This document shows, piece by piece, positions 39,158 to 45,671 of a stretch of DNA of 64,000 nucleotides. The stretch lies in the NCBI RefSeq assembly GCF_002894645.1, contig NZ_NCQY01000030.1, positions 404,325-468,324 of the forward strand. The letters run 5' to 3'. The translations under genes were made by a program, and so were the position numbers. Numbering within the stretch: position 1 is the stretch's first letter; every line of letters starts with the position of its first letter. The notes below the pieces were generated by a model. That model was not told where the DNA came from. It ran no database searches and saw nothing but the letters and a program-made list of their open reading frames with translations. Source of the stretch: Salinibacter altiplanensis. Lineage in GTDB: Bacteria; Bacteroidota; Rhodothermia; Rhodothermales; Salinibacteraceae.

Positions 39158-39337
39158 ACCAACACTCACGATTCGTGTCACAGGCTGCGCGGCGCTTTCG
39201 GTTGCCCTTTCGTGGGAAAACGCCCAACCACTTGATGCTGCGGTCTCAAACAGATCATTTTCCAAAAGTGTCCCGAACGCCAGCGCGCAGGGCGCGTGTG
39301 GAAAGGGTACGTTGCATTTGCCCTTGTTGTCTTTCGT

Positions 39338-40423
39338 ATGCGTTACGACGCCGACGTGATTGTCGTGGGGGCTGGGCTGGCCGGGGCCTGCGCGGCCTTC
39401 ACCCTGAGCCGGAACCACAAGGTCCACGTGCTGGAGTCCGACGAGCCCGCGTCCGGGGCGTCCGGGGCCGCCGCGGGCCTCGTGAATCCATTCATGGGGC
39501 GCCGCGCCCGCCCCACCTGGCGCCTGCGCGAGGCCTTGGCCGCCGTGCCAACGCTTCTGGAACGGGCCGGCGCCGCCGAGCTGTTTCCCGACACCGGCGT
39601 CCTCCGCCCCGCCGTGGAGCCCGATCAGGTGGCCCCCTTCCAGGAAACCGCCGAGAACCATCCGGAGCTTGCGACTTGGCTGCCGCCGGCGGCCGTGCAG
39701 GCTCGGTACCCCACGGTGCGCCCCGACCGCGGCGCGCTGTTCATCCCTCGAGGCGGGGCCGTCAACGTGAAGGCGATGGTGCGGGCGCTCCTGGACGCTG
39801 CGGCGGCCCGAGGGGCCACAATCGAAACCCGGGCGCCCGTGCTCTACTGGCGCGAGACGCCCACCGCCGCGGTGGTGGAGGTGGATCGGGGCGACGACAC
39901 GGACGAGCTCCGGGCCGACCGCGTGCTCCTTACCCTCGGGCAGGGCTTCCCGCCCTTTCCCGAACTGCGACGACTGGGGCTCGACGGGGTGAAGGGCCAG
40001 ACCGTCCGGGTCCGCCGTCCCGCGGGATGTCCCAAGAACCTTCCGCCACTGTCGGGCCGCGGCTACGTGGTGCCGGATGGCAAAACCTTGGTTCTCGGCA
40101 GCAACTACGAGAACGACTACGACGACCTCACGCCGGACCCGGCCGCCACAGAATACATCCAGGAAAAGGCAAGCCGCATGATTAAAGGCCTCGACCAGGC
40201 CGAGGTGCTCGACGAGATGGCAGGCGTTCGCGTGAAGCACGCGGAGACGAACCTGCCGCTGCTCGGCCCCCTTCCCCGCCGCGATCGAATCTGGACCTTC
40301 ACCGCCCTCGGCTCCAAAGGCCTCCTCACCGCCCCCCTTCTTGCCCTCGATCTCCCCACCTATCTCGCCGACCCGGCTCAAATCCCGGAGGCGGTTCGCA
40401 TTTCGGGGACCGAGCCTTCCTGA
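39338..40423 (+). CDS. FAD-dependent DAO-family oxidoreductase
   Basis: A 361-residue protein with an N-terminal FAD loop (ADVIVVGAGLAGACAAF) and acidic strand end (VHVLESDEPASGASG). Further landmarks are AAAGLVNPFMGRRARPTW, the FIPRGGAVN region near residue 135, KGQTVRVR near 225 and a C-terminal block LPLLGPLPRRDRIWTFTALGSKGLLTAPLLA. The layout is that of glycine/D-amino acid oxidase relatives such as ThiO and MnmC C-domains. The ATG at 39338 sits right before the FAD loop. It diverges from thiO with a 180-base shared region. The substrate is unknown; a duplicated amine oxidase is plausible. Confidence 0.85.
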   Translation: MRYDADVIVVGAGLAGACAAFTLSRNHKVHVLESDEPASGASGAAAGLVNPFMGRRARPTWRLREALAAVPTLLERAGAAELFPDTGVLRPAVEPDQVAPFQETAENHPELATWLPPAAVQARYPTVRPDRGALFIPRGGAVNVKAMVRALLDAAAARGATIETRAPVLYWRETPTAAVVEVDRGDDTDELRADRVLLTLGQGFPPFPELRRLGLDGVKGQTVRVRRPAGCPKNLPPLSGRGYVVPDGKTLVLGSNYENDYDDLTPDPAATEYIQEKASRMIKGLDQAEVLDEMAGVRVKHAETNLPLLGPLPRRDRIWTFTALGSKGLLTAPLLALDLPTYLADPAQIPEAVRISGTEPS

Positions 40424-40488
40424 TTCCCCCTTGGAATCCCTCCGCTTGGGCCGTCCGCTACTGATAGACATCCGTGGAGGGCGCCCTT

Positions 40489-42504
40489 CTATCGCACCAC
40501 CACGATCCGGCGCGTCGTCGTCACGTCCCCGACCGTCACGCGGGCAAAGTACACCCCGCTCGGCAGCCCCTCAACCCCAATCGCCATCGCGTGCCGACCG
40601 GCCGGGCGCGTCGCGGCGTGCCGCCGTACTTGCTGGCCGACGGTGTTGTAAAGGGCCACCTCAACGCTTGCCCGCTCCGGAAGCGCCACCGACAGCCGGG
40701 CCTGCGAGCGGACCGGGTTGGGGGCCACCGTGCCGACCTCAACGGTATCCGGAAGTGCCTCGGCCCCGAGGGCCGACGTCTTGCTCTCGGAGGAGAGGCA
40801 AATCTGATTCCCAGTGACAGCATTGCAGCCGCCCCCACCGCCGTCGTCGTTCGGGTAGATGGTTACTGAACGTTCAGCCACACCGGTTGCGTTGGTTACT
40901 TCATCAAAGGCAACGACGCGAATGCCTCCATTGTCGGTCGTCTCGTCGTCTGTATCCCGAAACGAGGTCGTGCAGGTGAGGCTGGTCCCGCAGGTTCCCA
41001 GCCACGAGTCGCCGCTTTTGCGCTGTTTCTTCCAGCTGATCGCGTAGGAGCCGGAGCCCCCAGAAACGGAGGCCTCCCACGTGGCCGTTTCGCCTTCTTT
41101 TACTTTGATCGGACCACTGATGATCTGCGCATTCGGGGGTGGGAGGGCGTCTTCGACTGACTGTCGCGCATTGAGGCGGCCTGCGCCATCCCAATTCGTA
41201 TTTCCGTAGTCGTCCGCATTGGTCTCGATATCACTCCGAACGTCCGACTCAGTGAGAGACGAGTTCGCCGAGAGCATCAGCGCCGCTGTCCCCGACGCCT
41301 GTGGCGCCGCTGCCGACGTGCCGCCGAAGCAGCCGTAGTAGTTTTCTGGCTCGTCAGCGTCATCAGTCTCATCACAGGCGGTCGCGTCAGGCTCGTACCC
41401 ACTGCCTCCCACGCGATCCGAGGTGCGCACGTCTCCATTTCCTCCTACGTCGCCGCTGGGAGCAACGATGGCCACCTCGTCATCGCGCGGGCTGTAGTAC
41501 CATACATTGTCATCCTTGTCAACAGCGCCCACCACCAGCAGGCCCGGTATTGTCGCGGGAAAGGTGACATCGTTTCCAGTGTTGCCAGCAGACTTGACAA
41601 CCACACTGCCTTTCCCGTTGCGTCCATCTTGGCGGGCGCGAGTGAGGGCGGCCTCAACTTCATCGTTCGGTGGACCGCCCCAACTGTTGCTCAAGACATC
41701 AGCGCCGTTTTGCCACGCGTAATCGATGGCATTTGAAGTTGGTTCGCCGTAGGGACCATCGAAGATATTGATCGGCATGATCTTGACGTTTGGGGCCACG
41801 CCGCGCACACCTTTTGTATTGTGATTAGCTGCGATGATCCCCGCGACAGCTTGGCCGTGCTGGCTTGCAGAACTGGGTGAGCCGTCACCGCCTCCTGCCG
41901 TGCGACCGTTGATGACCTGTCCACTGCGAAAGTCCTCGTGTTGCTCCACGCCGTCGTCCACTACGGCGACGGTGATAGAGGAACTTCCTTTCGAGAGTGC
42001 CCATGCTTCCGGCGCGTCGATGTCCACGTCGGCGGTGCCAAGGTTACTGCTAGTGTTGTTCAGATAGTATTGCTTGGGATATAGCGGGTCGTTGGCGCTG
42101 GAACGGGGCTGAATCCTGCCCTCCCTCTGGAGATTGACGTGAAAAGTGGGCACCGACCAGACGGTTAGCTCGCTCTCGTAGTAGCGATTCGCCGCTTCGA
42201 GGGCGTTCAGGGCCGACGCTTCGGTCACGCGCAACGGGTACTCGTTGTACTCACGCGCCTGCCGCCGGTCAATTTCGTTGTCCAAAGGGGCGACTTCGAC
42301 GCCGTACTTCTCGTTGAGCGAGTCGATCTCGGCCCGGGAGACGTCTGGCTTGAATTTGACACTGAACTCGTCGGTCATGACAAAGTGCGTCGTGTCGCTG
42401 TTTTGCGTGCGGAAGAACGCCGGTATGGTGCGTCGAACAGGCACCTGCTGGGTAAGCTGGTTGATGATGGTCAGGCTGAGTGCCTGCCGGTCTTCCGCTT
42501 CCAA
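40489..42504 (-). CDS. S8 (subtilisin) serine peptidase with type IX secretion C-terminal domain; 5' part cut off by an in-frame TGA
   Basis: This frame encodes a pro-region, then a peptidase domain with the full catalytic set: Asp in VAVVDDGVEQHEDF, His in SQHGQAVAGIIAAN, oxyanion Asn in VVKSAGNTGND and Ser in FGGTSAAAPQASG. A beta-sandwich (PKD-like) domain is followed by a type IX sorting domain: VAPNPVRSQARLSVALP, VALYNTVGQQV, LPSGVYFARV and a basic final strand. It has no signal peptide of its own and begins at a TTG; the first ATG is at 42378. The missing start is in the same frame just upstream (42517-42735), separated by one TGA. GC is lower than in neighbours. Confidence 0.85.
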   Translation of the reverse strand: MEAEDRQALSLTIINQLTQQVPVRRTIPAFFRTQNSDTTHFVMTDEFSVKFKPDVSRAEIDSLNEKYGVEVAPLDNEIDRRQAREYNEYPLRVTEASALNALEAANRYYESELTVWSVPTFHVNLQREGRIQPRSSANDPLYPKQYYLNNTSSNLGTADVDIDAPEAWALSKGSSSITVAVVDDGVEQHEDFRSGQVINGRTAGGGDGSPSSASQHGQAVAGIIAANHNTKGVRGVAPNVKIMPINIFDGPYGEPTSNAIDYAWQNGADVLSNSWGGPPNDEVEAALTRARQDGRNGKGSVVVKSAGNTGNDVTFPATIPGLLVVGAVDKDDNVWYYSPRDDEVAIVAPSGDVGGNGDVRTSDRVGGSGYEPDATACDETDDADEPENYYGCFGGTSAAAPQASGTAALMLSANSSLTESDVRSDIETNADDYGNTNWDGAGRLNARQSVEDALPPPNAQIISGPIKVKEGETATWEASVSGGSGSYAISWKKQRKSGDSWLGTCGTSLTCTTSFRDTDDETTDNGGIRVVAFDEVTNATGVAERSVTIYPNDDGGGGGCNAVTGNQICLSSESKTSALGAEALPDTVEVGTVAPNPVRSQARLSVALPERASVEVALYNTVGQQVRRHAATRPAGRHAMAIGVEGLPSGVYFARVTVGDVTTTRRIVVVR

Positions 42505-42516
42505 CCAGTAGAATCC

Positions 42517-42735
42517 TCAGTCGGCGTTCAAGACTTTGCGCAGCCGGACGTCAGGCCGACGAGACAATGCGCTGGTGAGCGCCGCTTGGGCGGTTTCGGG
42601 GATCTGGATGACCTTCCACTTCTCGGCCTGCTCGATGGGTATCTGGCGCTCGTCCGAGTAGTAGTGGTGGCCCTGCCCAAAGGCAGTTGGGGCCAGCAGG
42701 AATAGTACGGTAAGGAGCGTAGCAAACTGTTTCAT
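42517..42735 (-). pseudogene. Signal peptide and N-terminal 72 codons of the S8 peptidase, separated by in-frame TGA
   Basis: Codons 1-20 form a clear signal peptide (MKQFATLLTVLFLLAPTAFG). The rest (RQIPIEQAEKWKVIQIPE, ending RKVLNAD) looks like the start of a propeptide. After the TGA at 42517-42519 the same frame continues GFYWLEAEDRQALS into the peptidase. Nothing else is secretable here, so the two pieces are most simply one 748-codon gene with a nonsense codon. As it stands the upstream piece alone would be a useless secreted peptide. Confidence 0.75.
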
Positions 42736-42809
42736 GACGTTAACCCGCTGTAAGTTTGTTCGTGAGAAAGCGACTGTGAAGCTCGAAGGCAGCGCTTCGA
42801 GTCTGGAGT

Positions 42810-44021
42810 CTACGGATCGGGAACGGTTGCAGTACCGAGATGCAAAATGTAGCTCTTTACGTACCCCTCCTTATCGCGCTCCGGAGTGTAGGTGGCGAGC
42901 ACCTCCGCCGTCTCTGTATCCACTTTGATCAGCGCCGGCCTCGCTTGCCCATCGTCGTCAAGTCTGATTCGGGCCGGTCTCGGGTTTCTAATTACGAATG
43001 CCCCCCCATTGGGGAGCATCGTGATCTTGTCGGCGATCAGCGCTTCGTAGCCCAGCTCAAGGGCTTCTCCCCCATCGATGAATACAGTCAGTTCGCGCCG
43101 CTGTGTATCGAAGCGGAGCACCTGATTGGTCGGAACATGTTCGAGCATTCCGCCCGCCGGGCAGTCGATGAAGACGTAGCGCCCGTTCGGCGTGACGGCC
43201 AGCTCCGCGTAGCTTCCTACCTGACTCGTAAAGAGCACTTCGCCGCTTTGCACGTCCATCATGTAGAAGCGACCCGGCGGGCCCAGCGACGACCACGTCG
43301 TCGCAAACAGGTAGCGCTTGTCCGGGGAAAGGGTCAGATCGGAAAGACCTAACTTATCGGGCAGGGAAATCGTGCGTGTAACCTTTGCCTCGTTCGGGTC
43401 GTAGACGCGGATCTGAGGCCCGCTCTCGGTGCTCACGCCGAAGTAGATCTCTCCGCGTTCGGGATCCACCGCCGCTCCCTCCAGAGGACCGACGGATAGT
43501 TCATGCTCTAACTCCAGCGTCGCGGCGTCAAAGAACTGTGCGCTGCCGTCAAGATCAAAGACGACTAAATGATCGTTTACCGGTTCGTAGAGCAACGGGG
43601 CACGTCCCTTGAACGAGCCGGCCACTGAGGCACGCTTCATGATGCGTCCGCTGGTAGGATTAAAGGCCGCCAGCACTTTGCGTGCGCTCCCTTCAAACCT
43701 ATTTCCGGTGCCCCAAGCGGTGTACCAGCGCTCACGATCCAGGGAAGAGGCCACCCCGATGGGCGTGCGATCCGGCACCTCAGTAATCGGCGCAGGTTCG
43801 AGCGTCTCGGGGTCGAAGCGCCAGAGGCCATCCGCGTCGCCACCTACCGAGGCGACCACAGCGGGTCCCGCCGGTAGCGGCTGGCCCGTGTCGCCATCAG
43901 AACCAAAGAGGTCGCACCCGGCCAAGAGACTCAACCCAAAAAAGCACACAATGCCATAGACTCCCCCCCGCAACAAGAGCCGTCTCCAGAAGCGAAAGGA
44001 TTCGGGTTGACGAGCACTCAT
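42810..44021 (-). CDS. Beta-propeller (YVTN-like) lipoprotein
   Basis: A 403-residue protein with a twin-Arg-rich start, a hydrophobic core and a good lipobox (LSLLAGCDLF, Cys near residue 36). The mature part is built from repeated blades such as DGLWRFDPETLEPAPI, RVYDPNEAKVTRTISLP, DLTLSPDKRYLFATTW and ELAVTPNGRYVFIDCP, about seven in number, the pattern of YVTN/quinohemoprotein-type propellers. It is likely anchored to the outer membrane with a binding or scaffold role. No catalytic residues are recognised. The ATG at 44021 is chosen over one seven codons earlier. It lies next to the split protease in a lower-GC patch. Confidence 0.82.
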   Translation of the reverse strand: MSARQPESFRFWRRLLLRGGVYGIVCFFGLSLLAGCDLFGSDGDTGQPLPAGPAVVASVGGDADGLWRFDPETLEPAPITEVPDRTPIGVASSLDRERWYTAWGTGNRFEGSARKVLAAFNPTSGRIMKRASVAGSFKGRAPLLYEPVNDHLVVFDLDGSAQFFDAATLELEHELSVGPLEGAAVDPERGEIYFGVSTESGPQIRVYDPNEAKVTRTISLPDKLGLSDLTLSPDKRYLFATTWSSLGPPGRFYMMDVQSGEVLFTSQVGSYAELAVTPNGRYVFIDCPAGGMLEHVPTNQVLRFDTQRRELTVFIDGGEALELGYEALIADKITMLPNGGAFVIRNPRPARIRLDDDGQARPALIKVDTETAEVLATYTPERDKEGYVKSYILHLGTATVPDP

Positions 44022-44291
44022 CGGGCAATGCGTCTTACGCAATAGGAAAAGACGACCGGGAGCGACGCACTCAGAAGCCGATCCGACCGGCTCGGAGCAC
44101 TTGGCGTCAGCAACGTGTAGTATTTATGTAAGGTACACAATTATAATAACAGAGGGGGGGTAGGGATGTCAAGCCACGATCAATCGCCTCTGCGAGGCCG
44201 CCCCGATTCCCTCCCTTTTGCCACTGCATCTTCGGCGGTCGAGTCCTACGTTGTATCGTCCGCGGTTCTCCTCACAGTTGCCTGTCCCCCC
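44022..44291. promoter_or_regulatory. Divergent region with an A/T-rich block (44118-44152)
   Basis: The block tagtatttatgtaagg and acaattataataacagagg is the most A/T-rich stretch nearby. It should carry promoters for the propeller lipoprotein (minus) and the decarboxylase (plus). On the minus strand TATAATTGTG loosely resembles the Bacteroidota TAnnTTTG box. The plus strand has a G-run just before an ATG at 44166 whose translation is not protein-like. Confidence 0.35.
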
Positions 44292-45671
44292 ATGCCCGAT
44301 GCCCTCCTCCACCGCGCCCTCCAGCACGTTGAGGACTGGGAGCAATCCTGGGGCGACTTCGAGCGCCATCCCTCGCTCGGCGTCAGCCCGGATCGCCTCG
44401 ACAGTGTCTTCGACGAGTACCTGGAGCGGCTGGAGGGCAACTACCCGTTCCACCACCCGCGCTACGCCGGGCAGATGCTGAAGCCGCCCCACCCCGTCGC
44501 CTGTGCGGCGTACGCGGCGGCCCAGCGCATCAACCCCAACAACCACGCGCTCGACGGCGGCCCGCCCACCAGCCAGATGGAGACGGAGGTCGTGGCCGAC
44601 CTGGCCGCCATGCTCGGCCTCCCCGACACCGCCCTCGGCCACCTCACCGGCGGGGGCACGGTGGCTAACCTGGAGGCGCTCTGGGTGGCCCGCGAGCTGC
44701 GTCCGGATCAGGCGGTCGCGGTGGCCGAGAATGCCCATTACACCCACGGCCGCATGAGCGACGTGCTCGACACAGAGGTGGTCCCCGTCTCGGCCGATGC
44801 GCGGGGGCGGATGGACCTGGACAGTCTCGAACGAGCCCTGGAGCAGAATGGCATCGGAACGGTCGTGCTCACCGCCGGAACCACGGGCCTCGGGGTCGTG
44901 GATCCGATCGACGAAGCAATCCCACTCTGCGAGGCGCACGGCACCCGCGTTCACGTCGACGCCGCGTACGGGGGCTTTTTTCGGCTCTTGACGGAGGACG
45001 CGGCGCCCGAGATTGAGGGCTTTCCAGCCGAGCGATTCCGCGCGATTGAAGACGCCGACTCGGTGGCCATCGACCCGCACAAGCATGGCCTCCAGCCCTA
45101 CGGCTGCGGGTGCATCCTCTTCCGCGACCCGGCGGTCGGGCGCTTCTACCAGCACGACTCGCCGTATACCTACTTCACGTCCGACGACCTACACCTGGGC
45201 GAAATCAGTCTGGAGTGCTCGCGACCCGGGGCGGCGGCCGGGGCCCTCTGGTGCACATTGAAGGCCCTCCCCCTGGCTCCGGACGACGGCCTCGGCCCTA
45301 TCCTAACGGCATGCGTGCAGGCGGCCCGGACCTGGACCGAGGCGGTGGAGGCCACCGACGCCCTCCGCGTCGTAGCGCCCCCAGAGACCGACATCGTCTC
45401 GTATGTGCCGGCCACGACAGAATCGTCCCTCTCCGCCGTCCACGAGGCCAGCCAGGCTCTCTTCGACACGGCCATGAACGACCCGGACGATTCCATCTTT
45501 ACCAGCGTCTACCAGCTCTCCGCCGACGCGCTGACGTCCCTCCACCCGTCCCTCACGGCCGATCGGGACGAGGCCGCCGTCCTGCGCAGCGTGCTCATGA
45601 AGCCGGGGCACGAGACGTACGCAGAATCCCTGGTGGAGCGGCTGTCGACCCTTGCCATGGAATCCGTCTAG
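44292..45671 (+). CDS. Group II PLP-dependent decarboxylase
   Basis: A 459-residue PLP enzyme related to, but not a close copy of, the one at 17850-19277. It shows HPRYAGQMLKPPHPVACAAY near residue 55, LTGGGTVANLEALW (phosphate loop) near 118, HVDAAYGGFF (Asp and Ala contacting PLP) and Lys264 in AIDPHKHGLQPYGCGCILF. It has no AADC-type FGFVPGP motif, so it is nearer to the glutamate/tyrosine decarboxylase branch found in archaea and halophiles. The ATG at 44292 is chosen because the 42 codons upstream are not protein-like. The substrate is not assigned. Confidence 0.87.
   Translation: MPDALLHRALQHVEDWEQSWGDFERHPSLGVSPDRLDSVFDEYLERLEGNYPFHHPRYAGQMLKPPHPVACAAYAAAQRINPNNHALDGGPPTSQMETEVVADLAAMLGLPDTALGHLTGGGTVANLEALWVARELRPDQAVAVAENAHYTHGRMSDVLDTEVVPVSADARGRMDLDSLERALEQNGIGTVVLTAGTTGLGVVDPIDEAIPLCEAHGTRVHVDAAYGGFFRLLTEDAAPEIEGFPAERFRAIEDADSVAIDPHKHGLQPYGCGCILFRDPAVGRFYQHDSPYTYFTSDDLHLGEISLECSRPGAAAGALWCTLKALPLAPDDGLGPILTACVQAARTWTEAVEATDALRVVAPPETDIVSYVPATTESSLSAVHEASQALFDTAMNDPDDSIFTSVYQLSADALTSLHPSLTADRDEAAVLRSVLMKPGHETYAESLVERLSTLAMESV

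Follow-up and report, generated by a model that had tools for sequence, protein, structure and literature searches.

Subtilases of the S8 family that are exported by the type IX secretion system (T9SS) with a type A sorting domain (PF00082 together with PF18962 or TIGR04183) are among the closest described counterparts of the gene analysed here, which has the same parts in the same order: a signal peptide (assigned by eye), a propeptide, the S8 domain and a C-terminal sorting domain. It differs from them in that it is broken by a stop codon within the propeptide, and the signal peptide is not continuous with the mature protein. The gene lies in a window of 64,000 nucleotides (the whole stretch of DNA that was analysed) from Salinibacter altiplanensis, taken from a draft assembly of 30 contigs.

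Two kinds of interrupted gene provide a further comparison. The gene resembles a bacterial pseudogene formed by a single nonsense mutation in having an intact homologue elsewhere, one in-frame stop and an otherwise open frame, and in being absent from most relatives. It also resembles the read-through genes of Belinky et al. 2021 (PMC7918605), which have one in-frame stop with coding sequence on either side. That paper describes TGA as leaky in E. coli and reports that in-frame stops under continued selection are widespread in prokaryotes; the argument made there is from stops at the same position in orthologues and a dN/dS below 1 downstream, whereas here the sole close homologue has a sense codon.

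Structure of the protease gene

The features of the gene are as follows.

42517–42735, minus strand: 5′ part of the subtilase gene, comprising the ATG, the apparent Sec signal peptide (about codons 1–21, assigned by eye), the start of the propeptide and the TGA
42517–42519, minus strand: in-frame TGA, codon 73; an arginine codon stands at the aligned position of the homologue on contig C4 of genome G017
42502–42518, minus strand: possible restart signal (from the sequence only), with GAGGA at 42518–42514 overlapping the TGA, then TTG at 42504–42502
40489–42516, minus strand: 3′ part of the subtilase gene, comprising the remaining propeptide, the S8 domain, an Ig-like stretch, the sorting domain and the final stop
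41188–41982, minus strand: Peptidase_S8 domain, residues 252–516 (PF00082, 148.3 bits, cut-off 21.8)
40498–40722, minus strand: type IX sorting domain, residues 672–746 (PF18962, 35 bits, cut-off 27; TIGR04183, 36.8 bits, cut-off 23)

On translation, the minus strand from 42735 to 40489 is one frame of 748 codons before the final stop, in which the TGA at 42519–42517 is the sole internal stop. The frame is thus made up of 72 codons from the ATG, the TGA, 675 further codons and the final stop. The preliminary description of this DNA had placed the signal peptide and first 72 codons in the same frame as the rest of the peptidase, with only the TGA between them; the translation bears this out, and its coordinates are correct. 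The sorting domain, which had been described as intact after the TGA, is indeed recognised over cut-off both by the Pfam profile (PF18962) and by the NCBIfam profile (TIGR04183). What we take to be the D, H and S motifs of an S8 protease are visible in the translation. The gene region is single-copy in the genome, with one match.

The reading frame that begins at the TTG at 42504 encodes 671 amino acids. The earlier remark that the downstream part has no start better than this TTG is right for the vicinity of the stop, but not further down, where a GTG (codon 98, 42444) and an ATG (codon 120, 42378) occur. Both of these fall within the propeptide, and neither restores an export signal.

Homologues of the protease

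The N-terminal 239 residues are matched at E 1e-8 or better in four of the 114 genomes of the order, with the genome itself counted. Among these 114 genomes the sole close homologue outside the genome itself is in G017, which belongs to another genus of the same family (63% over residues 6–239). On contig C4 of G017 it is a single uninterrupted ORF of 837 amino acids, with the same domains in the same order. The alignment starts at residue 1, spans the TGA and reaches residue 592, with 55% identity (338 of 611 columns), and the sorting domain aligns again. Given that the parts before and after the TGA both align to this single ORF, they are one protein, from one ancestral gene, and more than a chance juxtaposition. 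The preliminary description had named, as the case that would overturn its account, a relative carrying the two parts as separate genes; this was looked for and not found, and since the homologue is one gene, two separate genes can be ruled out. Because the homologue is uninterrupted and has an arginine codon at the position of the TGA, the stop probably arose on this lineage.

Weaker matches were found in G025 (30%) and G013 (29%), with no stop in the matched stretch, the G013 match starting past the position of the TGA. A distant homologue from Flammeovirga gives an alignment that spans the TGA site without a stop. No match to the N-terminal part better than E 0.05 was found in the 12 other genomes of the genus, and the viral contigs searched gave no match to the protease. 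The genome contigs searched gave one distant subtilase from Armatimonadetes, and in a search of 222 plasmid records every best place was below 60% identity. It is worth adding that three sister matches to the protease have one stop within the matched stretch (G009:C94:1073–1417, G010:C85:17468–17740 and G002:C1:120967–121323).

Synonymous sites are nearly saturated between the subtilase and its homologue (pS 0.65–0.78), and dN/dS is therefore unusable for this pair, including as a test of readthrough downstream of the stop.

The insert and the lipoprotein gene

The surroundings of the protease gene are arranged as follows.

39296–40423, plus strand: left flanking gene, FAD-dependent oxidoreductase
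40424–44291 (approximate), between the two flanking genes: species-specific insert, from comparison with sister genomes
42810–44021, minus strand: upstream lipoprotein gene of the pair (ORF; lipobox by eye; no Pfam match)
44292–45671, plus strand: right flanking gene, PLP-dependent decarboxylase

The oxidoreductase is found in all 13 genomes of the genus, this one included, and the decarboxylase in 12 of the 13. The two genes are side by side in 11 sister genomes, where their matches are 52–122 bp apart as against 3,871 bp here, and the DNA of both window flanks matches adjacently in every one of these 11. Homology to the sisters stops near 40389 on the left and restarts near 44281–44301 on the right. 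The protease gene, together with the upstream lipoprotein gene, therefore makes up an insert of about 3.9 kb that is absent from all 11 sisters with the flanks side by side; G007, which has no decarboxylase match, was left out of this count. Of the 12 sisters, only G006 and G012 match the lipoprotein, in both cases weakly and locally (E about 2e-4). Since the flanks adjoin without the pair in the sisters, and the lipoprotein is only weakly matched there, the pair is, judging from the genome comparison, an insert that, among the genomes of the genus sampled, only this species has; its loss from every sister would be a less simple alternative. The GC content of the insert (0.60–0.61, compared with a window mean of 0.655) fits acquisition, weakly, and a repeat search of 40350–44350 found no clear repeat at the insert edges. 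One sister match to the FAD oxidoreductase (G005:C1:1549629–1550750) has one stop within the matched stretch.

A homologue of the lipoprotein also precedes the subtilase on contig C4 of G017. G017 has a second copy of the lipoprotein gene (contig C2, L066:8918–10300), 76% identical to that of the window over 366 residues and with a dN/dS of 0.19. It is followed by a near-identical spacer and subtilase start, in which the frame ends at 12 codons, with the rest gone. In this second copy the lipoprotein is kept and the protease has been lost by deletion; in the window gene, the protease would have been lost through the stop. Neither the lipoprotein nor the protease was found in G018, a genus-mate of G017 whose genome is 86% complete. 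The two lipoproteins of G017 (L066:8918 and L034:5567) have 88% nucleotide identity over their first 41 codons, yet the proteins are overall only about 50% identical, and this uneven similarity suggests recombination.

Decoding of the TGA codon

There are 46 matches to tRNAs in the genome, of which ARAGORN resolved 45, none of them with the TCA anticodon that would read TGA; no suppressor tRNA reading TGA was therefore found among the 45. The remaining tRNA-like match (L149, at G000:C29:633029–633095, outside the window) scores 42.3 bits and is not called by ARAGORN; its anticodon arm is shortened and, judged by eye, contains no TCA anticodon. The tRNA-Trp has an anticodon stem of the full five pairs, and the possibility, raised by PMC13092985, of a UGA-reading tRNA-Trp with a four-pair stem is thereby ruled out.

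A search of the genome for tRNA-Sec (RF01852) gave nothing over the cut-off, the best match (43.4 bits against 47) falling on the gene for a tRNA-Ser with a TGA anticodon; each of the 14 control genomes likewise has matches that fall short of the cut-off. Together with the arginine in the homologue, this excludes a selenoprotein. Stop codon use in 31 intact genes of the window is TAG 16, TGA 10 and TAA 5, and RF2 scores 458.6 bits (cut-off 370) with an open frame. Given that TGA ends ten of these 31 genes, that no tRNA reading TGA is among the 45 resolved and that RF2 is over its cut-off, a reassigned code was also rejected. Folding of the RNA at and beyond the stop is only slightly better than that of shuffled sequences (z −1.16, with 25 of 200 shuffles as good), and a recoding structure after the stop is not indicated.

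Integrity of the neighbouring genes

Comparison with the syntenic region of the sister genome G004 matched 43 non-overlapping ORFs of at least 100 amino acids in the window. All 31 of the genes that align well (at least 85% of their length at more than 70% identity, 13,800 codons in all) are without a stop or break. The other 12 ORFs were set aside after their coordinates were inspected: one runs off the window end, and the rest are terminus differences, upstream extensions, overlapping frames and weak partial matches. No other interrupted gene was recognised in the window by this comparison. An apparent second broken gene at about 15.6–17.6 kb proved to be a shadow ORF; the MFS transporter and HAD hydrolase there are uninterrupted.

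The type IX translocon gene sprA

Outside the window, the type IX translocon gene sprA appears split in this genome (G000:C15:85500–94500, L133). Near C15:92,684–92,692 it has a run of nine G, one base short of the aligned stretch in each of three sisters used for comparison, which throws roughly the final 250 codons, at the 3′ end, out of frame. All 11 of the sister genomes with sprA show it as one uninterrupted match; G007 is without it. The frameshift could be a homopolymer error of the assembly, a fresh mutation or slippage. The data do not support a general decay of type IX cargo: there are 19 other protease matches in the genome, and none of the nine listed has a stop.

One of these nine matches, on the same contig as sprA (C15:249113–249232, also outside the window), encodes 40 residues that are 75% identical to the end of the sorting domain of the protease, within an open frame of only 56 codons. 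This is perhaps the relic of a close paralogue.

Origin of the stop codon

The TGA is in our view, with a probability of roughly 80%, the result of a recent nonsense mutation that struck an acquired, dispensable gene encoding an S8 protease of the secreted or surface kind. Translation would end after 72 codons, inside the propeptide, so that no exported protease would be made, and the rest of the frame would still be open because there has been too little time for further damage. Of the explanations offered in the preliminary description, a fresh nonsense mutation is the one that the results favour: the close homologue has no break, the frame shows no other lesion and the gene lies in a species-specific insert. 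About 3% of random substitutions in the gene would create a stop, and as no second stop is present in 748 codons, neutral decay is bounded at about 99 substitutions, or about 4.4% of the gene. The second copy of the pair in G017, also without its protease and with the lipoprotein kept, lends further support. Against this, there is one close homologue only, at 55% identity, so that the codon of the immediate ancestor is not seen, and the perfectly open downstream frame would also follow from readthrough or a base error. We infer that ribosomes do not read through the stop, that the base is correct and that the gene is inactive. It looks like an ordinary gene at the first stage of decay, with no new mechanism.

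Readthrough of the UGA at a low level would give some full-length exported protease, and the gene would then work at a reduced level. The fully open frame beyond the TGA is what this would produce, and the reported leakiness of TGA and the spread of selected in-frame stops (Belinky et al., 2021) speak for it in general terms. However, the one close homologue compared does not share the stop, and the genome shows no dedicated machinery: a tRNA with a TCA anticodon, a tRNA-Sec over its cut-off, a shortened tRNA-Trp anticodon stem and a marked RNA structure are all missing from the searches described above. Spontaneous readthrough, though compatible with the sequence, is consequently unlikely. 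A base error in the assembly, with the gene intact, is slightly less probable again. The draft state of the assembly allows for it, as does the fact that the second apparent lesion of the genome, in sprA, falls at a G run, where errors are typical; but the TGA differs by a substitution and is not in a long homopolymer, and the 31 uninterrupted window genes disfavour the sequencing error that had been put forward, though a single substitution error keeps a low probability.

The remaining explanations carry much less weight. Ribosomes might terminate at the TGA and begin again at the TTG at 42504, to make a cytoplasmic protein of 671 amino acids with a role of its own, and the GAGGA that overlaps the TGA, nine bases before the TTG, would suit such a restart. 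The product would, however, have neither the signal peptide nor the opening third of the propeptide, although it would retain a sorting domain for which the periplasm is needed, and no relative was found to carry such a gene, all of which makes the proposal very improbable. A reversible phase-variable switch at the stop, the last of the earlier suggestions, finds no footing at all and can be given almost no credence: the lesion is a substitution, there is no tandem repeat in 40300–44400, and the repeats of at least 14 bases in 40350–44350, which are 76–88% alike, do not cover the stop.

The preferred reading, a recent nonsense mutation, does not rest on the sprA finding. A wider and doubtful scenario would join the two: this lineage would be shutting down type IX secretion, perhaps in a reversible way through slippage at the nine-G run of sprA, with the subtilase stop as an early casualty, while the lipoprotein and protease would form a mobile unit in which the lipoprotein has its own function and the protease is lost repeatedly.

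The stop in the protease gene shows an acquired, secreted protease at a point shortly after its inactivation. Alone it has little significance, except as a warning that an annotation starting at the TTG would report a functional gene in error. If the sprA frameshift is real, it would matter more: it would disable or toggle export of the type IX cargo of the strain, and would make the loss of any single cargo less costly.
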